NCBI GenBank assembly: GCA_017307855.1
Contig: JAFKGD010000005.1
Coordinates: forward strand, 124,001-188,000
DNA: 64,000 nt
Direction: 5' to 3'
Origin: Burkholderiales bacterium
GTDB lineage: Bacteria > Pseudomonadota > Gammaproteobacteria > Burkholderiales > Burkholderiaceae_C
Below, one piece after another: positions 1,757 through 46,930 of this stretch (position 1 is the stretch's first letter; the number at the start of each line of letters is the position of its first letter). The position numbers were made by a program, and so were the translations under genes. The notes beneath the pieces are model-generated. The model saw only the letters and a program-made list of their open reading frames with translations, was not told the origin of the DNA and ran no database searches.

Positions 1757-2989
1757 TCAATCCAAGGTCACGCGCGCGAACTTGCGCTTGCCCACCTGCA
1801 GCACGTAAGTGCCTGCACCGAGCTTCAGCCCCTTGTCGCTGACGACCGACGAATCCACACGCACGCCGCCGCCCTCGATCAGGCGGTTGGCCTCGGAGGA
1901 CGAGGGTGCCAGGCCGGCCGCCTTGAGTAGCGCCGCGACGCCCAGCGGCGCGCCCGACAGGGCCACCTCGGGAATGTCGTCGGGCACGCCGCCCTTGCTG
2001 CGGTTGGCGAAATCCTGCTCGGCGGCGTCGGCAGCGGCCGAGCTGTGGAAGCGCGCGGTGATCTCGCGCGCCAGTTCCACCTTCACTTCCTTGGGATTGC
2101 GCCCACCGGCGATCTGCTCGCGCAATTTCGCGATGTCCGCCAGCGAGCGCATCGACAGCAGCGTGTACCAGTCCCACATCAGGTCGTCGCTGATGGAGAG
2201 CACCTTGGCGAACATGCTGTTGGCGTCCTCGGTGATGCCCACGTAGTTGTTCTTGCTCTTGGACATCTTGTCGACCCCGTCCAGGCCCACCAGCAGGGGC
2301 ATGGTGAGGATGCACTGCGGCTCCTGGCCGTATTCCTGCTGCAGGTGGCGGCCCATCAGCAGGTTGAACTTCTGGTCGGTGCCGCCCAGTTCGAGATCGC
2401 TCCTCAGCGCCACCGAGTCGTAACCCTGCATCAGCGGGTAGAGGAATTCGTGCACGCTGATCGACTGGCCAGACGAGAAGCGCTTGTGGAAGTCATCGCG
2501 CTCCATCATGCGGGCCACCGTGTACTTGGCGGCCAGCTGGATCAGACCGCGCGCGCCCAGCGGGTCGCTCCATTCGGAGTTGTAGCGCAGCTCGGTCTTC
2601 GAAGGATCGAGGATCTTGTCGGCCTGGGCGCGGTAGGTTTCGGCGTTGACCTTGATCTGGTCGGCCGTGAGTGGCGGGCGCGTGCTGTTACGACCCGAGG
2701 GGTCGCCGATCATGGAGGTGAAGTCGCCAATCAGGAAGATGACGGTGTGGCCCAGGTCCTGCAGCTGGCGCATCTTGTTGAGCACCACGGTATGGCCCAA
2801 ATGGATGTCGGGCGCGGTCGGATCGAGCCCCAGCTTGATGCGCAGCGGCACGCCCGTGGCGGCCGAACGCGCGAGCTTGTGCGTCCACTCGTCCTCGGGC
2901 AGCAACTCCTCGACCCCGCGGCGGGTCACGGCCAATGCCTCGCGCACGGCATCCGTGACCGGGAATTTTGTAACAGGTGCTTGATTCAT
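1757..2989 (-). CDS. tyrS: Tyrosyl-tRNA synthetase
   Basis: TyrS charges tRNA-Tyr with tyrosine in the cytoplasm. The 410-residue protein is full length for the class I TyrS family with the HxGH-type signature (HLGH at residues 63-66) and KMSKS near residue 240. It ends in an S4-type RNA-binding domain over roughly the last 65 residues. The start is the ATG at 2989, giving the N terminus MNQAPV. The reading frame stays open far upstream, but that extension is opposite the peptidase gene and has no family similarity. The gene is divergent from the M23 peptidase, with about 170 bases between them. Confidence 0.97.
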
Positions 2990-3163
2990 AAGGGTTTTTT
3001 GATCGACACGCCGGACACGGTCGGTATACTTCGCGCCAGTTTGCTGCAAGCGCCGGATTCTAATTGGCGTGGTTATTGCAATCCGCAGCGCATGTTTTTC
3101 CAGAATCCGGCTTCCCTTCCTACAGACGGGCCCGGCATTCGCTGACTTCCCCGGAGCCCATCC

Positions 3164-4501
3164 TTGAAGCAAGGACTGATCACCGCCGGCCAGGCCACTC
3201 TCGACATGGTTCGCCGCCACCCCCGCCGTCTGTCCACCGCTGTTGCAGCTTTTCTCCTGTGTGCCGGAGGCGGTGCCTTCGCCGTGGCCTCGCTGGGCCC
3301 CGATGCATCCGAATTGCCGGTCGAAACCGTGATCGAAGCCATCGACACCCTGCCTGTGGACGCGCAGGCGCTGGCCCTGGACACACACAGCTTCAACCTC
3401 TTCCGCACCGACCTGACGCGTTCGTCGGACACACCCGAGTCGCTGCTGCAGCGCCTGGGCATCGCCGACGCCGACGCCGCCGCCTTCCTGCGCCGCGACG
3501 CCAACGTGCGCCAGGTGCTCTGGGGCCGTGCCGGCCGCAATGTCAAGGCAGAAGCCAGCGACACCCACTCGCTCGTGGGACTGTCGGCCCGCTGGAGCGC
3601 CGACGACGGCAGCTTCAAGCGCCTGGTGGTCGAAAAAGGCTCCGCAGGGTTCATCTCCCGTATCGAGCAGGACGTCCTGACGACCTCGGCCCGCCTGGCC
3701 AGCGGCACCATCCAGTCGTCGCTGTTCGCCGCGGCCGACGAAGTCCGTCTGCCCGACAGCGTGGCCACGCAGCTGGCCGAGATTTTCTCGGGCGACATCG
3801 ACTTCCACCGCGCACTGCGCCGCGGCGACCGTTTCTCGGTGGTCTACGAAACGCTCGAAGCCGATGGCGAGCCGCTGCGCGCCGGCCGAGTGCTGTCGGC
3901 CGAGTTCGTGAACAACGGCAAGACCTTCCAGGCCATGTGGTTCCAGGAGCCGGGCACCAAGGGCGGCTACTACACGCTGAACGGCGACAGCCTGCAGCGC
4001 GCCTTCCTGGCCTCGCCGATGGCGTTTTCGCGCATCACCTCCGGCTTCAAGATGCGCTTCCACCCCATCCTGAAGACCTGGCGGGCCCACAACGGCGTGG
4101 ATTACGCCGCTCCCACGGGCACGCCGGTGCGCACTGTCGGCGATGGCGTGGTCGAGTTCGCGGGCGTCCAGAACGGCTTTGGCAACGTGGTGTTCGTCAA
4201 GCACCGCGGCGGCAACACCACGGTGTACGCCCACCTGAGCAAGATCAACGTGCGCCGCGGCCAGAACGTGGCGCAGGGCGACAACATCGGCGCCGTCGGC
4301 ATGACGGGCTGGGCCACGGGCCCGCACCTTCACTTCGAATTCCGCGTCAACGGCGAGGTGCGCGATCCGCTCACCGTGGCCCGCCAGGCCGAGACCGTGC
4401 CGCTGTCGACCGCTTCGCGACCGGCGTTCGAACGCCTGGCCGCCGGCTATCGCGTGCAACTGGGTGCTGCGGCGATCATGCAGCAGGCCAGCGCGCAGTA
4501 A
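3164..4501 (+). CDS. M23 (LytM) metallopeptidase
   Basis: This is a predicted cell-wall endopeptidase or activator acting in the periplasm. The 445-residue protein has an N-terminal membrane anchor or signal (about residues 24-44), a long middle region, and a C-terminal LytM domain. The zinc motifs are HNGVD for the first ligands and HLHFEF for the last, so the site looks intact. The start is a TTG preceded by GGAG eight bases upstream; a later ATG would cut into the signal. It is followed 27 bases later by anmK, which fits a shared role in peptidoglycan turnover. The family includes the MepM type of hydrolase, but I cannot assign the exact cleavage. Confidence 0.9.
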
Positions 4502-4528: not shown

Positions 4529-5647
4529 GTGGATCCGCTGTTCATCGGCCTCATGTCGGGCACCTCGCTCGACGGGGTCGACGGCGTGCTGGCCGATCTC
4601 TCAGGCCACACGCCGCGCGTGCTGGGCCACGCCGCGCGGCCGCTGCCCGCCCTTCTGCGTGCTGAACTCATGGCGCTCAACACGCCCGGTGGCGTGAACG
4701 AACTGCACCGCGCAGCTCTGGCAGGCAATGCAATGGTGCGCGTTTACGCGGAGGTCGTCGCCACGCTGCTGGCTGACACCGGCCGTAGCGCGAGGGACGT
4801 CGCGGCCATCGGCGCCCACGGCCAGACCGTGCGCCACCAGCCCGGCCTGCACGATGGCACGGGCTACACGCTGCAGCTCAATCAGCCGGCCCTGCTGGCC
4901 GAAGTCACGGGCATCGCCGTGGTGGCCGATTTCCGCAGCCGCGACATCGCGGCAGGCGGCCAGGGCGCGCCGCTGGTGCCGGCCTTCCATCACGCGCTGT
5001 TCGCCCAACCGGCACGGACTGTCGCCGTGCTCAATCTTGGCGGCATCGCCAACATCAGCGTGCTGGCGGCCGACGGCGCCGTCACGGGCTTCGACTGCGG
5101 CCCTGCGAATGCGCTCATGGACCACTGGTGCCTGCAGCACACCGGCCAGCCGTTCGACCGCAATGGCACCTGGGCCGCGCAGGGCCGTGTTCTGCCCGCG
5201 TTGCTCAGGATGCTGCTGGCCGAGCCGTTCCTCGACCAGCCGCCACCCAAGAGCACCGGGCGCGATCTGTTCCACCCCGCCTGGCTGGCCTCGAAGCTGG
5301 TGGCCGCCGATGCGGTCGCTGCCGCCGCTGCAGACGTGCAGTCCACGCTGGCCGAGTTCACCGCCGAGGCCGCAGCCCGCCATGTACTCCGCCACGCTGC
5401 CGACGCCACCCGGCTGCTGGTGTGCGGTGGCGGCGCCCTCAATACGCACCTGATGTCACGGCTGGCCGCCCTGCTGCCCGGCATCGCCGTGGCCTCCACC
5501 AATACCGCCGGCCTGCCGCCGCTGCAGGTGGAAGCCTGCGCCTTCGCCTGGCTGGCGCAACGCACGCTCACCGGCCAGCCCGGTAACCTTCCGGCGGTGA
5601 CCGGCGCCCGCGGCCCGCGCGTGCTGGGCGCGATCTACCCCGCCTGA
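4529..5647 (+). CDS. anmK: Anhydro-N-acetylmuramic acid kinase
   Basis: AnmK phosphorylates 1,6-anhydro-MurNAc while opening the anhydro ring, feeding recycled cell-wall sugar back to MurNAc-6-phosphate. The 372-residue product has the family opening [11 protein letters not shown] near residue 8, followed by [11 protein letters not shown] and [11 protein letters not shown], all typical of AnmK. The start is a GTG; no strong ribosome-binding site is visible, but the family N terminus matches there. It lies directly behind the M23 peptidase gene and is probably co-transcribed with it. Confidence 0.95.
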
Positions 5648-36279: not shown

Positions 36280-37134
36280 TCAACCGAATTCAGGACCGGC
36301 CAGCACGAACTGGCGGTCGTGCGCCTGGGCATGCAGGCGCGCGCCGGGCGCCGTGAGGGCCATGCGCACGAAGGGGCGCTGGGGCGCGAAGCCGTGGGAT
36401 TGCAGCCAGACCGCGAGCCGGCCCCAGCGGTCGGGCACATCGAGGAACACCGGCCCGCGCACGCGCGCCATCACGGCCTGCAGCAGCGCCAGCGCATCGT
36501 CTTCATTGCCAGCGACCAGCGGGCCGACCTGCACGGCGCGCACGCCCCCGCGCGCCAGCACGAAGCCCGTGCCGTCGTGCAGCGTCAGGGCCTGCGTGCC
36601 CGGCCGCGCCAGCACGTCGCGCAGCAGGAAGCCGCGGTCGAGTCCGGTGACTTCGCGGTCCAGCGCGCCGATGGCGTCGGCGTCGGCGGGGCCGGCGTCG
36701 CGCACGCGCGCATCCGCCGTCGGGCCCGCAACGCCCTGCCCCTGCCAGCGCGCGAGCGCGAAGCCTTCGACGAAGCCGATGCGTCGGTATACCTCGGCGC
36801 CGTCCGGCGTCGCGTCCAGCACGGGCGTCACCGCGCGTGCATGCAGCGCGCGCACGCAATCGTTCAGCAGCTGTGTGGCCAGGCCCCGGCGCCGCCAGTC
36901 GTCACGCACCAGCACCATCGAGATCCAGCCCTGGCCGCCCGCGTAGGGGAGCGCGGCGGCCGTGGCCACCAGCGTACCGGCGTCATCCTTGAGGCCCGTG
37001 ACTTCGCCATGGCCGATGAACAGCTGCCAGTCGGCCAGCGTCTGGTTCCAGCCCGACGCGGTGGACAGCAGCAGGCCGCCGGCCGCATCGGCCGGCGAGA
37101 GCTTCACCCGCGCGAGCGAGTCAGAAGCCACCAT
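36280..37134 (-). CDS. GNAT-family acetyltransferase
   Basis: The 284-residue product has an N-terminal GNAT fold with the acetyl-CoA loop VRDDWRRRGLATQLL (about residues 76-90). A second GNAT-like C-terminal half follows from about residue 140, as in the two-domain YitH-like group. The acetylated substrate is unknown. Its first 14 bases overlap the end of the SDR gene and it ends eight bases before the DapA-like start, so it is firmly in the operon. It may detoxify or tag an intermediate. Confidence 0.82.
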   Translation of the reverse strand: MVASDSLARVKLSPADAAGGLLLSTASGWNQTLADWQLFIGHGEVTGLKDDAGTLVATAAALPYAGGQGWISMVLVRDDWRRRGLATQLLNDCVRALHARAVTPVLDATPDGAEVYRRIGFVEGFALARWQGQGVAGPTADARVRDAGPADADAIGALDREVTGLDRGFLLRDVLARPGTQALTLHDGTGFVLARGGVRAVQVGPLVAGNEDDALALLQAVMARVRGPVFLDVPDRWGRLAVWLQSHGFAPQRPFVRMALTAPGARLHAQAHDRQFVLAGPEFG

Positions 37135-38200
37135 CCCGCACCTCGAACTTGGTGGGCTTGCCGTGCGCGGGTTGCTCGCGGCTGATCCAGTCGGCCACCC
37201 AGTCGATCATCTGGCCCAGCGGTACCAGCGGGTAGCCGAACAGGCGGTTGGCCAGCGTGGTGTCGGACAGCAGCGCGTTGGGTGCTTCCTGCCCGCTCAC
37301 CTGTACCGGCACGCCGAAGCGGTGGGCGAACTGCGTCACCAGCCAGCGCACGGAGATGGTTTCGGGGCCCGTGCAGTTGATGGGCGTCGAGGGCGTCGTG
37401 CAGTGACGCAGGCAGCGCAGCACCTGTGCGTTGGCGTCGCCCTGCCAGATCACGTTGACGTAGCCCATGGTCACGTCCACCACCTCGCCGCGATGCACGC
37501 GGCTGGCGATGTCGTAGAGCACGCCGTAGCGCATGTCGATGGCGTAGTTGAGACGGAAGATGCGTCCGGGCGTGTCGTACTTGCCGGAGAAATACTCGAA
37601 CATGCGCTCGCGGCCGATGCACGACTGCGCGTATTCGCCCACCGGACCGGGCGGCGTCGCTTCGTCCGCGCCCTGGCGGCCCACGGGCGTGAGGGGGTAG
37701 ATGTTGCCGGTGGAGAACGCCACGATGCGCGAGGCCTTGAACACCTCGGCCACCAGCGCGGGCACGTGCGTGTTCATGGCCCAGGTGAGCGACTGGTTGG
37801 ATGAGGCGCCGAACTTGTGGCCCGCCGCGAAGATGACATTGGGCACCTTGGGCAGCGCCTCGAGCGCGGCGCGGTCGAGCAGATCGCAGGCGATGGTCTC
37901 GACGCCCCAGGCCTCGAGGCGATCGCGCACGGTGGCGTCCGAGAAGCGCGCCACGCCGATCACGCGCTTGTGCGGCGCCGCGTTCTTCGCCAGGCGCGCG
38001 AGCGTGGGGCCCATCTTGCCGGCCACGCCCAGGATCATGATGTCGCCATCCACCTGCGCGAGATCGTCCACCAGTGCCTGGCTGGGCCGCGCGAGGAAAT
38101 CCTCCAGCGCGTCCACCGATTCGAAGCTGGCCGGCAGGCGCGCGGCGTCGAGCAGGGCCGCGCCACCAGAGGCGGCGCCGATCGGGGTTCTCATGTTCAT
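37121..38200 (-). CDS. NAD-dependent epimerase/dehydratase (SDR)
   Basis: This extended SDR has a Rossmann start DIMILGVAGKMGPTLARLAK at about residues 53-72, a serine region AFSTGNIYP and later FRLNYAIDMRYGVLYDIA. In place of the classical YxxxK the sequence has EYAQSCIGRERM, so the catalytic Tyr is present but the Lys position is not conserved. A weak ribosome-binding site precedes the ATG at 38200. It is the first gene of the nine-gene operon, 41 bases after a likely -10 box. The sugar or acid substrate is unknown. Confidence 0.82.
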   Translation of the reverse strand: MNMRTPIGAASGGAALLDAARLPASFESVDALEDFLARPSQALVDDLAQVDGDIMILGVAGKMGPTLARLAKNAAPHKRVIGVARFSDATVRDRLEAWGVETIACDLLDRAALEALPKVPNVIFAAGHKFGASSNQSLTWAMNTHVPALVAEVFKASRIVAFSTGNIYPLTPVGRQGADEATPPGPVGEYAQSCIGRERMFEYFSGKYDTPGRIFRLNYAIDMRYGVLYDIASRVHRGEVVDVTMGYVNVIWQGDANAQVLRCLRHCTTPSTPINCTGPETISVRWLVTQFAHRFGVPVQVSGQEAPNALLSDTTLANRLFGYPLVPLGQMIDWVADWISREQPAHGKPTKFEVRDGGF

Positions 38201-38240
38201 GGCGGGACTTTCACGCGTTTGAAACCAACGGACGGCAATG

Positions 38241-38281
38241 AGCTTATGGGCTGGTTTCCGGCGTGTCAACCGTTTGGTTGA
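38241..38281 (-). promoter_or_regulatory. Promoter with TetR-type operator
   Basis: On the minus strand a perfect TTGACA (38269-38264) is followed after 17 bases by TAAGCT (38246-38241). The dyad TCAACC-N4-GGTTGA (38266-38281) covers the -35 box. This layout fits repression of the nine-gene operon by the TetR protein encoded just upstream. The half-site AACC is shared with the palindrome before paaA. Confidence 0.65.
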
Positions 38282-38384
38282 AATGGCGAGGGTTAGCCCG
38301 GATGCAGTGCATGCGGGGCACTGACTTCGGGCGCGGTGCACCAGATGGGCCGGTGTTCTGCGAAGGTTCTCCACGTTGCGCCCG

Positions 38385-38481
38385 GACCCGGGATCCACGC
38401 CCCCTTGCGCCGCTCATGTCCCCCGCCGGCTGCGCCGGCTCCTCCTTGACTTCGCTTTGCAAGGGGGCCTGATCCCGGGTC
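38385..38481. repeat. Structured palindromic element, left copy
   Basis: An outer stem pairs GACCCGGGATC (38385-38395) with GATCCCGGGTC (38471-38481), and GCCCCCTTG (38399-38407) with CAAGGGGGC (38460-38468). Inside, GCCGGC-TGC-GCCGGC (38425-38439) forms a short hairpin. It is flanked by TGTCCCCC on one side and TCCTCCTTGAC on the other. The right copy has the same core in the opposite direction. Confidence 0.7.
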
Positions 38482-38526
38482 TTGGAGCCACGGTGGCGTG
38501 CGGGAGCAGTCGTGAGCCGCACTGCT

Positions 38527-38624
38527 GCGAGAGCGCGGGGTGGTTGCCGCAGCGAGGTCAAGGAGGAGAGTCGGCGCAGCCGACTCGGGGGACACGAGCG
38601 GAGGCGACCACCCCGCGATCTCGC
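38527..38624. repeat. Structured palindromic element, right copy
   Basis: An outer stem pairs GCGAGA-g-CGCGGGGTGGT (38527-38544) with ACCACCCCGCG-a-TCTCGC (38607-38624). The inner hairpin is GAGTCGGC-GCA-GCCGACTC (38568-38586). Read in reverse it repeats the left copy's core (TGTCCCCC, hairpin, TCCTCCTTGAC, TCGCT). Both stems have other bases than in the left copy, yet remain paired. Confidence 0.7.
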
Positions 38625-38660
38625 CCCTCACCAACGGAAAGCACGCCCCCGGAAGAAAGC

Positions 38661-39338
38661 TCAGGGCCGCAACGCGGCCATCGCGAACGACACCACGTGT
38701 TCGCGGTACGACTTCTGTGCCTTCGGCGCCGTGAGGTCGCGGTCGAAGATCGACGACAGCGTGAGCCGGTTGGAGAAGAAGAAGTACGACATGCCGGCCA
38801 CCGAGATGTAGAGCTCCACCGCATCGACACCGCGCCGGAATGCACCCGCGCGCGTGCCGCGCGCGAGCGTCTTGGCGATCAGCTCGATCAATGGCGAGTT
38901 GGTCTCGCGGATCGCGCGCGAATCGCGCACGTGCGCCGCGCCCTGCGCGTTCTCGTGGTTGAGCAGGCCGATGAAATCCGGGTGCTGCGCCAGGTAGTCG
39001 AACGAGAAGCCGATCAGCGCGGCCATGGCCTCGGCCGGCGCCATGTCGGCCAGATGCAGTTGCGCTTCGAGCGAGCGGATCTCCAGGTAGACCACCTCCA
39101 GCGCCGTGCGGTAGAGGTCTTCCTTGCTGCCGAAGTAGTAGTAGATGAGCTGCTTGTTGACGCCCGCGCGCGCTGCGATCTCGTTGACGCGTGCGCCGGC
39201 CAGGCCCCGCGCCGAGAACTCGGCGCGGGCCGCCGCGAGGATGGCTTCGCGTGCGCCGCCGGTGTCGCGGACGGCGGCACTCTCGTCGATCGTGCGGGCG
39301 TTGGCGGGGAGGACGGGCGATGCGGCGCGGCGGGGCAT
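38661..39338 (-). CDS. TetR-family regulator
   Basis: The 225-residue protein has an N-terminal TetR helix-turn-helix (about residues 28-75, with VNEIAARAGVNKQLIYYYFGSKEDLYR). The C-terminal ligand domain resembles the RutR/NicS-like group. It is encoded on the same strand and just upstream of the nine-gene catabolic operon, whose promoter carries a matching dyad. It is therefore the likely repressor, with a pathway metabolite as inducer. The N-terminal 25 residues form a loose extension. The ATG at 39338 was used. Confidence 0.88.
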   Translation of the reverse strand: MPRRAASPVLPANARTIDESAAVRDTGGAREAILAAARAEFSARGLAGARVNEIAARAGVNKQLIYYYFGSKEDLYRTALEVVYLEIRSLEAQLHLADMAPAEAMAALIGFSFDYLAQHPDFIGLLNHENAQGAAHVRDSRAIRETNSPLIELIAKTLARGTRAGAFRRGVDAVELYISVAGMSYFFFSNRLTLSSIFDRDLTAPKAQKSYREHVVSFAMAALRP

Positions 39339-41158: not shown

Positions 41159-44100
41159 TCAGCGCGCCAGCACCGGCGCCAGTGCCACACCCGTGTGCGT
41201 GCCCTGCGCCACCACGTCCTCGGGCGTCGCCTGCGCCACCACGCGGCCGCCGCCGTCGCCGCCCTCGGGGCCCAGGTCGATGATCCAGTCGGCCTCGGCG
41301 ATGATGTCCAGGTCGTGCTCGATCACCACCACGCTGTGGCCGCCGCCCACCAGACGGTGCAACACGTGCGCGAGCTTCTCCACGTCGGCCATGTGCAGGC
41401 CCACGGTGGGCTCGTCCAGCACGTAGAGCGTGTGCGGCGCCTTCTGCCCGCGTCGCGTGATGTCGTCGCGCACCTTGCTGAGTTCGGTCACGAGCTTGAT
41501 GCGCTGCGCTTCGCCGCCCGAGAGCGTGGGGCTGGGCTGGCCCAGCGTGAGGTAGCCCAGGCCCACGTCCTTGAGCAGTTGCAGCGGATGCGCGATGTTG
41601 GGCATGCTGGCGAAGAACTCCACCGCCTCGTCCACCTCCATCTGCAGCACGTCGCCGATGCTCTTGCCGCGCCAGCTCACGGCCAGCGTCTCGGGGTTGA
41701 AGCGCGCGCCGTGGCAGACCTCGCAAGGCACCTTCACGTCGGGCAGGAAGCTCATCTCGATGGTGCGCATGCCCTGGCCTTCGCAGGCGGGGCAGCGGCC
41801 TTCGCCGGTGTTGAACGAGAAACGCCCCGGTCCGTAGCCGCGCGCCTTGGCTTCCAGCGTGTCGGCGAACAATTTGCGCACCGTGTCCCAGAAGCCGATG
41901 TAGGTGGCGGGGCACGAGCGTGGCGTCTTGCCGATGGGGGTCTGGTCCACCTCCAGCACGCGGTCGATCACCTCGTAGCCGGCCAGCGAGCGCAGGCCGT
42001 TCCAGGCCGGGTGCTTGCCGGCATCGTCGGCATCGCGGCCGGCCTTCGTGCTGCGCTGCTGCACGGCGGCGCTCACGTTGGCCAGCAACACGTCGCGCGC
42101 CAGCGTGCTCTTGCCCGAGCCCGACACGCCGGTCACCACCACGAGGCGATGCAGCGGTACGTCCACCGTGACCTCGGCCAGGTTGTGCAGGTGCGCGCCG
42201 TTGACCAGCAGGCGCGGCGTGTCGGCCTCGATGGCGCGCCGCGCTGACACGGGGTGTCGCATGGCGTGCAGCAGGTAGCGGCCGGTCACCGAATCGGCCT
42301 GGCCCGCCACGTCGTCCACGCTGCCCTGCGCCACCAGCCGGCCGCCACGCCTGCCCGCGCTCGGACCGATGTCGATGATGTGGTCGGCGCGGCGGATGGT
42401 GTCCTCGTCGTGCTCCACCACCACCAGCGTGTTGCCCTTGTCGCCGAGCTTGTGCAGCGCATCGAGCAGGATCTGGTTGTCGCGCGCATGCAGGCCGATG
42501 GTCGGCTCGTCGAGCACGTAGCACACGCCCTGCAGGTTGCTGCCCAGCTGCGCGGCCAGACGGATGCGCTGCGCCTCGCCGCCCGAGAGCGTGGGCGCGC
42601 CCCGGTCGAGCGTGAGGTAGCCCAGGCCCACTTCCTCGAGGAATTCGAGACGGCTGGCGATCTCGGGGATCAGGTCGCGGGCGATGTCGCGTTCGCGCTG
42701 GGTGAGCTGATAGAGCCCGATGCTGGCGGCGCCGCTGCTGGCCGCATCAGCCTTCAGCGCGACTTCGCCGAGTGAGGCCACCCACTTGCGCACGTCCTGC
42801 ACCGACATGCGCGCGATGTCGGTGATGGCCACACCGGCAAAACGCACGGCGCGCGCGGTGGCATTGAGGCGGGTGCCTTCGCAGCCCGGGCAGATGGCCT
42901 CGCCCACGTCTTCCACGTCGGGCTCGGCGAACGTCTGCTCGCGGCCCCGGTTGTCATCGGACTGCACCGAGTCGTCCAGCGCCCGGCGCTGGTCCTTGGT
43001 TAGCTTGACGCCCGTGCCCACGCAATCGGGGCACCAGCCGTGTTTGCTGTTGTAGGAGAACAGGCGCGGGTCCAGCTCGGCATAGCTGGTGCTGCACACC
43101 GGGCAGGCCCGGCGGGTGGAGAACACCTGCAGCGCGCCGATGCCGGCCGTGGGCGTGCCATCGCGCATGGCATCGGCCAGCGCGCCCAGCGACGACAGCA
43201 CGTGCAGCACGCCCTTGCCGTGCTCCAGCGCCGTGGCGAGCTTGTCGCGCAGCAGCGCCTCGTTGGCCGGCGTGATGTCCAGGCTGGCCACCGGCAGCTC
43301 GATGGTGTGCTCCTTGAAGCGGTCGATGCGCGGAAAGCCGGTGGTCGGCAGGAAGTTGCCGTCCACCCGCAGGTGCGTGTAGCCGCGCGGGCGCGCCCAG
43401 TCGGCCAGCTCGGTGTAAACGCCCTTGCGCGCCACCACCAGCGGCGCGAGCAGGCCGATGTGCTGCCCCCTGAACTGGCGCATGAGCTGCGCCACGATGC
43501 TGTCGGGCGTCTGCGGCTGCACGGCCGCGCCGTCGTGCACGCAGTGCTGCGTGCCCAGCTTCACGTACAGCAGGCGCAGGAAGTGCCACACCTCGGTGGT
43601 GGTGCCCACCGTGCTCTTGCGGCCGCCACGCGAGAGGCGCTGCTCGATCGCCACCGTGGGCGGAATGCCCCACACGGCATCGACCTCGGGCCGCCCGGCC
43701 GGTTGCACGATGCTGCGCGCATAGGCGTTGAGCGATTCGAGGTAGCGGCGCTGGCCTTCGTTGAACAGGATGTCGAACGCCAGCGTCGACTTGCCCGAGC
43801 CCGACACGCCCGTGACCACGTTGAACTTGCCCCGCGGGATGTCCACCGACAATGACTTGAGGTTGTGTTCGCGCGCGTTGACGATCTCGATGGCGTCGCG
43901 TGGGGCCACGGCCGGCTTCACCGCGTAGGAGGCGGCAGGCTCGGCCGCCACCATGGCGCCCTCGCCCATCGCCGCCTCGTACTCGCGCAGCGCCTGCCCG
44001 GTGTGCGAGGTGGGATGCTGGCGCACCTCTTCGGGCGTGCCCTGGGCCACCACCAGGCCGCCGGCGTCGCCGCCTTCGGGGCCCAGGTCGATCAGCCAGT

Positions 44101-46930
44101 CGCTGGCGCGGATCACGTCGAGGTTGTGCTCGATGACGACCAGCGAGTGGCCAGCCTCCAGCAGCCGGCGCAGCGCGCGCATGAGCTTGGCGATGTCGTC
44201 GAAGTGCAGGCCGGTGGTCGGCTCGTCGAACAGGAACAGCGTGCCCTTCTTGGCGACGGGCTGGCTGCTGCCGCGGCCCTTCGCGGCATCGGCCAGGAAG
44301 CCGGCGAGCTTGAGCCGCTGCGCCTCACCGCCCGAGAGCGTGGGCACGGGCTGGCCCAGGCGCACGTACTCCAGGCCCACATCGACGATGGGCTGCAGCG
44401 CGCGGATCACCTCGCGGTCCTGCGCGAACAGCTGCGCGGCCTCGCTCACAGTGAGCTCCAGCATGTCGGCCACCGACAGCACGCGCGGGCGCACGCTGCC
44501 CACGGCCTGGCGCTCGATGGTCACCTCCAGGATCTCGGGGCGCCAGCGGCGGCCGTCGCATTCCTGGCAGCGCAGGTAGACGTCGGAGAGGAACTGCATC
44601 TCCACATGCTCGAAGCCCGACCCGCCGCACAGCGGGCAACGGCCATCGCCGGAGTTGAAGCTGAACTTCGACGCCGTGTAGCCGCGCTGCTTGGCCAGCG
44701 GCGCATTGGCGAAGATCTCGCGGATGGCGTCCCATGCGCCCACGTAGCTCACGGGGTTGGAACGCGCGGTCTTGCCGATGGGCGACTGGTCGACGAACAC
44801 CACGTCGGCCAGGTGGTCGGCGCCCAGCAGGCGGTCGTGGCGGCCGGGCGATTCGGTGGCACGGCCGAAGTGGCGCATCAGCGCGGGCGCCAGCACGTCC
44901 TGGATCAGCGTGGACTTGCCCGAGCCCGACACGCCGGTCACCGTGACCAGGCGCTGCAGCGGGAAATCCACCGACACGTCTTTGAGGTTGTGCTCGCGCA
45001 CGCCTTCGAGGATGAGGCGCGGTGTGCTCTCCGTCACCAGCCGCTTGAGGCCCAGGCCGATGCTCTTGCGCGCGCCCAGGTAGGCGCCGGTGAGCGTGTC
45101 GGCGCGCCGCAGGTCGGCCGTGGCGCCATCGAACACGATGTTGCCGCCGCGCTCGCCCGGGCCCGGGCCCATGTCGATCATGCGGTCGGCCGCGAACATC
45201 ACGGCCGGGTCGTGCTCCACCACCACGAGCGTGTTGCCCGCGTCGCGCAGGCGCTGCATGGCCGTGATGATGCGGCCCATATCGCGCGGGTGCAGGCCGA
45301 TGCTCGGCTCGTCCAGCACGAACAGGGTGTTGACCAGCGAGGTTCCCAACGCGGTGGTGAGGTTGATGCGCTGCACCTCGCCGCCGGAGAGCGTGCGGCT
45401 CTGCCGGTCGAGCGTGAGGTAGCCGATGCCGACCTCGGCCAGGTACTTCAACCGTGTGGTGATTTCCTCGTGCAGCAGGGCCAGCGCCTGTTCCTCGCCC
45501 GCGGCGGCGGCGTGCTGCGTGGTCTCGATGGATTCGAAGAAGCGCCGCAGCCGGTCGATGGGCAGCAGCATGAGGTCATGCAGGCACAGGCCCGGCAAGG
45601 CTTCCAGTTGCTCGCGCGACCACTTCACGCCGCGCGGCATGAACCGCTTCGACGGTTCGAGGACGGCGTCGGCAGCCTGCTTGCCGCCGATGCGCCAGAG
45701 CAGGCTGTCGGTCTTCAGGCGCGCGCCGCCGCATACCTCGCACGGCGTGTAGCTGCGGTACTTGGACAGCAGCACGCGGATGTGCATCTTGTAGGCCTTG
45801 CTCTCCAGGTAGGCGAAGAAGCGGCGGATGCCATACCACTGCTTGTTCCAGTTGCCTTCCTTGAAGTTGGGCGTGCCCTCGATGACCCAGCGCTTGTGTT
45901 CCTCGGTGAGCTTGTTCCAGGGCGTGTCGCGCGGGATGCCGGCCGCCTCGGCGTGGCGCATGAGATCGTCCTGCGCCTCCGCCCAGGCGGGTGTCTGGAT
46001 GGTCTTGATGGCGCCCGCGCGCAGCGTGAGTTTCTCGTTGGGCACCACCAGTGCCCAGTCCACGCCGATCACGCGGCCGAATCCGCGGCATGTCTCGCAG
46101 GCGCCGGCGGGCGAGTTGAACGAGAACATCGAGGGCACGGGCTCGGCGTAGCGCAGGTCGCTGTCGGGGCAGTGCAGGCCGGTGGAGAACCTCCACAACA
46201 CGGCCTCTTGATCTTCCTGGACGACGTACACGTTCAGCCGCCCGCTGCCGCGCTTGAGCGCCGTCTCGATGGCCTCAACGACGCGGATGCGCTCGGCCGA
46301 CGAGAAGCGGAAGCGGTCGGCCACGACATCGAGCACCTTGCGGGGCCCTGTGGGCGTGGCTACCTCGCGCTCAGCCTGCACACGGGTGAAGCCGCTGGCG
46401 GACAGCCATTGTTCGACCTCTTCGGGCGTGGTGCTGGCAGGCAATTCGACCGGAAACGTGAGCACCAGGCGCGGCTCGCCCGCTCCGAACCCCTTGACCC
46501 GCTCCTGGATCTGCGCATAGATCGTGTCCGGCGAATCGTGCCGCACGGGCTGCGCCGTTTCGCGGTCGAACAACGCGGCCGCGCGCGCAAAAAGCAGCTT
46601 GAGGTGGTCGTTGAGCTCGGTCATCGTGCCCACGGTGGAGCGCGACGAACGCACGGGGTTGGTCTGGTCGATGGCGATGGCCGGCGGCACGCCTTCGACG
46701 CGATCCACCGCGGGCTTGTCCATGCGGTCGAGGAACTGGCGCGCATAGGCGCTGAACGTCTCGACGTAGCGGCGCTGGCCTTCGGCGTACAGGGTGTCGA
46801 ACACCAGGCTGGACTTGCCCGACCCGCTGGGGCCCGTGACCACCGTCAGCTCGCCGGTGCGGATGTCGAGATCGAGGTTCTTGAGGTTGTGCTGGCGCGC
46901 TCCGCGGATGCGGATGGTTCCCTGTGTCAT
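41159..46930 (-). CDS. uvrA: Tandem (double) UvrA excinuclease subunit
   Basis: The 1,923-residue protein is two UvrA units in one chain. It has four Walker A motifs (GPSGSGKSS then three GVSGSGKST) and four LSGGE signatures, so each half is a complete pair of ABC modules. The first half (to about residue 1000) keeps the UvrB-binding-like region and a long insertion domain with CEVCGGARL. The second half (from about 1005) has a much shorter insertion. UvrA finds DNA damage and loads UvrB. A chain like this would act as an intramolecular dimer. It is probably a paralogue beside a standard uvrA elsewhere. Confidence 0.95.

Follow-up and report, generated by a model that had tools for sequence, protein, structure and literature searches.

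Paired strand-specific hairpins in Burkholderiales form a widespread, apparently undescribed repeat family

Introduction

REPINs and BIMEs, in the parts of PMC3116915 and PMC8266576 that deal with them, are built of two inverted hairpins with a spacer, are present in many intergenic copies, and are recognised on one strand. The element that we describe here is similar in these respects, recognition of one strand being what we propose for it. The arms of REPINs and BIMEs are 20–50 nt long, whereas those of the element are about 100 nt. The element also differs from them in its long covarying outer stem, its nearly invariant internal loop, the flank overlaps found at some sites, and the absence of a linked Y1 gene. 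The REPs tabled in PMC2817692 have a GTAG or GTGG head before the hairpin, and this head is absent from the 5′ core of the element, GCAGCGARRTMAAGGAGGA.

ERIC, Correia/NEMIS, and RUP repeats, as treated in part of PMC2229807, are like the element in being small, non-coding, dispersed, and foldable, and in lying within operons; they also have short target duplications, for which the element has candidates at some sites. Unlike them, the element has two separate and complete hairpin arms with a common core and freely changing stems; it has no autonomous relative that we could find, and in Variovorax it has a fixed orientation after stop codons. Integron attC sites and the ends of IS200/IS605 are acted on as folded single strands, by proteins of a kind named in PMC8266576, and by analogy this is the principle that we propose for the element. 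The attC sites stand in arrays, whereas the element occurs in dispersed pairs. The box sequences of attC presumably do not match the element core either.

We found no published description of the repeat family in open-licence PubMed Central papers, including with 15-base core stretches as query; PMC3733652 and PMC10969869 likewise gave no hits. The paired strand-specific hairpins, found in certain soil and water bacteria, make up a repeat family that is real, widespread, and apparently undescribed. In our view, the pair analysed here is probably one instance of a mobile DNA repeat that is non-autonomous, resembles a MITE or REPIN, and consists of little more than two inverted structured ends.

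Results and discussion

The window, the whole 64,000-nt stretch of contig JAFKGD010000005.1 that was analysed, contains two arms in opposite orientation. Copy 1 is at 38374–38492, with minus as its folding strand and a covariance-model match at 38392–38472, and copy 2 is at 38527–38624, with plus as its folding strand and a match at 38535–38619; the bounds of both are approximate. On the folding strand, copy 1 consists of an outer stem, the core AAGGAGGA / GGGGGACA, and the inner hairpin GCCGGC-GCA-GCCGGC. Copy 2 has the same core, the inner hairpin GAGTCGGC-GCA-GCCGACTC, and an outer stem that differs in sequence from that of copy 1. The original prediction, made from the letters of this DNA, had described two opposed elements with a common core and inner hairpins, which it wrote as GCCGGC-TGC-GCCGGC (copy 1) and GAGTCGGC-TGC-GCCGACTC (copy 2), and these are present in the sequence. 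The core stretches of the two copies are 94% complementary, and the outer stems are without common sequence, as had been stated.

The spacer between the outer stems (38493–38526) contains no promoter-like site that we could find. A TetR-family regulator gene (38661–39338, minus strand; PF00440, PF17938) has its stop codon 36 bp from copy 2, and a gene for an NAD-dependent epimerase/dehydratase (37121–38194, minus strand; PF01370; start codon of our choice) lies downstream in the same direction as tetR. Neither a sigma-70-like promoter nor a terminator-like site was found in the intergenic stretch 38195–38660 by our scan, which could miss such a site. The pair had been placed between the TetR gene and the promoter that it probably controls. 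It does lie beside tetR, after the stop codon; no promoter was found in 38195–38660, and control by TetR is suggested by position only. Any effect of the pair on tetR or on the epimerase gene would be secondary. Elsewhere in the window, on the minus strand at 41159–46930, there is an open frame of 1923 aa that contains a pair of UvrA interaction domains as well as several stretches of ABC ATPase type; it seems to combine two UvrA-like halves in a single protein.

The 17-base core tail occurs eight times in the genome, and its control does not occur. The pattern of core plus variable hairpin occurs 15 times and the reversed control pattern zero times, so the pair is not due to chance. With a covariance model built from those 15 copies, the count for the genome rises to 18; seven pairs, all in the (−,+) layout, account for 14 of them, and four are solo. 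A single Variovorax genome (G150) has 74 arms, in 31 pairs and 12 solo arms, and all 31 pairs are again (−,+), with a spacer of 66–69 bp between model matches. Typed by eye, 11 of the solo arms are 10 alpha and one beta, the weak solo arm L305 not being among them.

Within the same family, the element was matched in 69 of 150 genomes, in some of them up to the ceiling of 30 scored candidates. Across the phylum, it was matched in 11 of 398 genomes belonging to only two families, seven of them in the family of the host and the remaining four in a second family, which belongs to the same class and from the record names would be Xanthomonadaceae. Match counts per genome range from 1 to 74. Since at most 30 candidates per genome were scored for the 150 genomes and at most 11 for the 398, with stricter filters, these copy numbers and presences are lower bounds. 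Among the matches listed in the named scan (80 loci of at least 119 stretches), the genera include Variovorax, Ramlibacter, Rhodoferax, Rubrivivax, Hydrogenophaga, Acidovorax and others, and Sulfurisoma, together with records of Xanthomonadaceae type (Luteimonas, Lysobacter, Thermomonas, and others) and one record labelled Bacillus subtilis, for which we suspect mislabelling.

Some matches are on plasmids. The Burkholderia anthina plasmid NZ_CP071828.1, which is typed as conjugative, has a single arm (2983–3069, minus strand) in a catabolic gene cluster, between genes annotated as alpha/beta hydrolase and semialdehyde dehydrogenase that run in the same direction. Two Variovorax plasmid records, for which the gene table is absent, each contain a full pair. 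Plasmids could carry the repeat family between species. The sole match among viral contigs is one arm at the end of an IMG/VR contig filed as viral (5476–5562, minus strand), which may be host sequence.

On the better-folding strand, the order of an arm is a free-sequence outer stem, GCAGCGARRTMAAGGAGGA, a free-sequence inner hairpin, GGGGGACANNHGCGG, and the other side of the stem. The outer stem is 14 bp in the covariance model and up to about 25 bp in single copies. By contrast with these free stems, AAGGAGGA and GGGGGACA are nearly invariant across 144 distinct rows of the alignment. Both window copies fold better as DNA than 200 of 200 shuffles (z = −4.35 for copy 1 and −3.51 for copy 2), and as RNA both strands of both copies also fold better than 200 of 200 shuffles, with z from −5.73 to −7.86.

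Among the 15 pattern-derived copies (13 distinct), both partners have changed in 15 of 24 base pairs, and pairing is kept in 94.6% of cells, vs 30–49% when the partners are slid. In the 144 rows, both sides change in 20 of 24 pairs, a count that is weak alone because shuffles average 18.2. There are 810 double-change cells vs 204.8 in shuffles, and 93.2% of cells pair vs 31–44% with slid partners. Selection of the stems for structure, as originally predicted, is thus strongly supported by the pattern of base changes. The prediction had named beforehand two outcomes that would speak against it, no further copies and stem changes that break pairing, and neither occurred. Two pairs of the inner core helix fail in 72 and 86 of the 144 rows, so the drawn structure is uncertain in that helix. 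Certain core variants co-occur in the rows read by eye: GAAAT with ACATTCGC, GAAGT with ACATGAGC, and GAGGT with ACACGAGC. This looks like an exchange between two alternative local structures. The internal loop of GGAGG and GGGGG could possibly form a small G-quadruplex, and the entire unit is also able to fold as one long hairpin.

The summed stability over the 15 copies is −1063 kcal/mol for the complement of the strand that was first written, vs −963 kcal/mol for that strand itself, though not so in every copy. The elements therefore stand as originally proposed with the strand reversed, copy 1 folding on minus and copy 2 on plus. Departures from pairing in the outer stem on the folding strand are 196 G.U, 7 A.C, and 37 others in 144 rows (four duplicates of 148 were left out), and without the two columns richest in G.U, 111 G.U to 5 A.C remain; the p values for these counts take related copies as independent and are indicative only. 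Equal weight on both strands should give similar counts of G.U and A.C, so the large excess of G.U defines a strand. The covariance model could itself favour G.U, but in units from Variovorax that had been found by BLAST the ratios for the two arms are 75:5 and 95:3. In these BLAST units, G.U is found at stem position 7 in 34 and 34 of 40, and at position 13 in 36 and 33 of 40. Strand-biased C-to-T change could be a partial source of the G.U pairs. Read along either strand, the unit has its folding hairpin nearer the 3′ side, which would fit the two equivalent ends of a mobile unit. We propose, from the evolutionary signature of 196 G.U to 7 A.C, that one folded strand and not its complement is recognised.

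All 40 Variovorax units examined, from five genomes and with some sites possibly shared, lie between predicted genes, as called by our own codon-score script and checked by eye only. The gene on the beta side ends toward the unit in 39 of 40 (20 of 20 in G150); the arrangement is tandem in that direction in 30, convergent in nine, tandem the other way in one, and never divergent. Loci of many genera gave 46 classifiable pairs once duplicate copies and 21 groups lying at the edges of loci had been removed, and these are 28 tandem, 17 convergent, and one divergent. The fixed orientation could come from selection after insertion or from a directional target.

What is the function of such a structure? 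The arm could be an RNA element, acting in mRNA as an intercistronic or 3′-end structure that sets the stability of the message or the translation of the next gene, in which case selection would explain structure, orientation, and place together. The position after stop codons in one orientation agrees with this (39 of the 40 Variovorax units), as do the G.U pairs, which suit RNA. The conserved AAGGAGGA also resembles a Shine-Dalgarno sequence. PMC2229807 reports that an ERIC repeat lying in an operon makes the transcript upstream of it less stable by way of an RNase E site, and that the orientation of the repeat is crucial. Against this, in the 28 pairs between genes of the same direction, the folding strand of one arm is in the message and that of the other is antisense to it, and G.U:A.C is 36:0 in the sense arms and 46:1 in the antisense arms; the 17 convergent pairs give 42:0. 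Since the antisense arms have the same bias as the sense arms, the fold is not accounted for by the operon message by itself, and we reject selection through the message as the sole cause. Furthermore, Rfam 15 gives no match at the gathering threshold for 38200–38800 up to E = 1, the two hits below threshold having E = 0.028 (22.8 of 200 bits) and E = 0.3 (17.9 of 50 bits), and the intergenic stretch of the window has no promoter-like or terminator-like site. We therefore consider an RNA element an unlikely explanation of the pair, with an RNA role that is at least secondary being possible.

Hairpins of DNA that move agree with the results better than does an RNA element acting in the operon. 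In Variovorax, the pair is part of a recurring unit, about 256 bp long, that runs from TTCRGGGYG to CRCCCYGAA and has two inverted arms and no predicted gene inside (locus L286 is absent from our table of unit ends). It is thus a short non-coding repeat with terminal inverted repeats, as is a MITE. A comparison of 12 Variovorax genomes with one occupied region as query showed numerous copies of the unit in each, and the whole-unit matches listed are mostly 81–95% identical. The query site is occupied in five genomes and contains a remnant in one, and in two others there is hardly any gap between the flanking genes; the flanks of the occupied site overlap by 4 bp in an empty relative. Eight further sites were compared with 57 loci from relatives, labelled by motif as 12 filled, eight partial, and 37 empty; ‘empty’ means that there is no intact core motif, and several such loci have remnants (e.g. 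L358, L369, and L408), while some ‘partial’ loci hold the whole unit with a changed motif (L390 and L403), and eight loci have no match to the downstream flank.

At three of these eight sites, the empty relative shows a flank overlap of 7–10 bp: 8 bp for L270 with L367, 8 bp for L262 with L371, and, for L276, 7 bp with L404 and 10 bp with L405. No flank overlap with relatives was seen at the remaining five sites. We read the overlaps of 7–10 bp, from comparison of the aligned flanks, as probable target duplications. They include the start codon, and therefore both overlapping genes stay whole. Matching of the flanks of 40 units gave a negative result for target duplication, with a mean longest match of 6.3 within units vs 6.09 across units. 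Up to about 50 bp lie between the conserved unit and the overlaps, so the true ends of the unit are not fixed. For the site in the window, an empty relative was sought, and the best relatives match just one of the two flanking genes. In Luteimonas terricola (L166), two inverted units at 546–833 and 4203–4491, 3.4 kb apart, are 97–99% complementary over the arms, possibly reflecting recent spread and providing a site for inversion. The original prediction had left the choice between an RNA (leader, terminator, or small RNA) and mobile DNA hairpins. The occupied and empty sites, the short flank overlaps, and the G.U signature of the antisense arms favour the DNA hairpins; the RNA forms lose ground with the lack of an Rfam match and of promoter-like or terminator-like sites.

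If the unit moves, which enzyme moves it? A REP or BIME proper, moved by a RAYT (Y1) transposase, is suggested by the inverted pairs with a spacer, the intergenic location, and the strand-specific hairpins, as in the REPINs and TnpA-REP of the passages concerned in PMC3116915 and PMC8266576, and GGAG is present 5′ of the inner hairpin. Two inverse copies with a linker, as in REPs and REPINs, are found in 7 of 7 pairs in the host genome and 31 of 31 in G150. The REP head is missing, at least by comparison with the REPs in the table of PMC2817692, and the cognate Y1 gene flanked by the repeat is missing also. In the host genome, a single Y1 transposase gene was found, and its locus of 3.3 kb contains no arm; the covariance model gives 0 matches in 31 Y1 loci with about 1.5 kb on each side, these loci being part of the Y1 genes listed. 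Over 150 genomes, Y1 genes are present in 53 of the 69 that carry the element and in 59 of the 81 that lack it (p = 0.71, no association). There are 16 genomes that bear the element and have no Y1 match, one of them with 26 copies. The RAYT as mobiliser thus has no support from either the loci or the genomes. Overlaps of 7–10 bp, moreover, are not expected from Y1 enzymes. We regard a REP or BIME proper as quite improbable. One relative in the set has no match to the element but 20 to Y1 transposases, several of them equal in score.

No autonomous relative with the same ends was found in the fetched stretches, and no partner was found there for the 12 solo arms of G150. Two wide gaps between arms were candidates for an autonomous copy and were rejected: that in L171 holds a DUF2306 gene, and the predicted genes in the 3.4 kb gap of L166 look, by eye, like ordinary metabolic genes.

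The element could also be an intergenic site at which the host binds or transcription stops, and which selection, not mobility, has spread. This would agree with a symmetric element that has just one of 46 classifiable pairs between divergent genes, but we think it most improbable given that some units separate operon genes which, in relatives that lack the unit, overlap or have almost no gap, that the intergenic stretch of the window has no terminator-like site, and that presence is patchy (69 of 150) with match counts from 1 to 74.

The mobile DNA repeat is thus the reading that we prefer, and the observations beneath it are the dispersal of the copies, the (−,+) layout, the occupied and empty Variovorax sites, some flank overlaps, and the strand-specific structure in both arms. 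In the mechanism that we propose, each arm would act as a folded single strand, and it would be recognised by its shape and its purine-rich internal loop, not by the sequence of the stem. An enzyme encoded elsewhere would move the unit, probably in the folded form. Copies would persist mainly after stop codons because insertion there spares both neighbours.

A further, tentative possibility is that this is a new transposition system, with ends that are defined by shape, as a strand-specific hairpin with a fixed purine-rich loop and free stems. Its enzyme would recognise DNA as a folded single strand, like Y1 transposases and integron integrases, but the target duplications that it leaves would be staggered, like those of DDE enzymes. 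The units would insert at operon junctions with one orientation relative to transcription.

If the mobile repeat reading is right, there is a large repeat family, not in Rfam, with dozens of copies in Variovorax and with copies in many genomes of the host's own family and in some Xanthomonadaceae. Such a family is easily mistaken for regulatory RNA. It would also allow a natural test of the idea that recognition of mobile DNA can depend on the shape into which one strand is folded, and insertion at the stop/start junctions of operons would be an unannotated change in the coupling of neighbouring genes. In Luteimonas sp. J29, at about 1011–1065 of the locus (L137), a short run of GGCACAA units repeated in tandem is present in the spacer between two arms.
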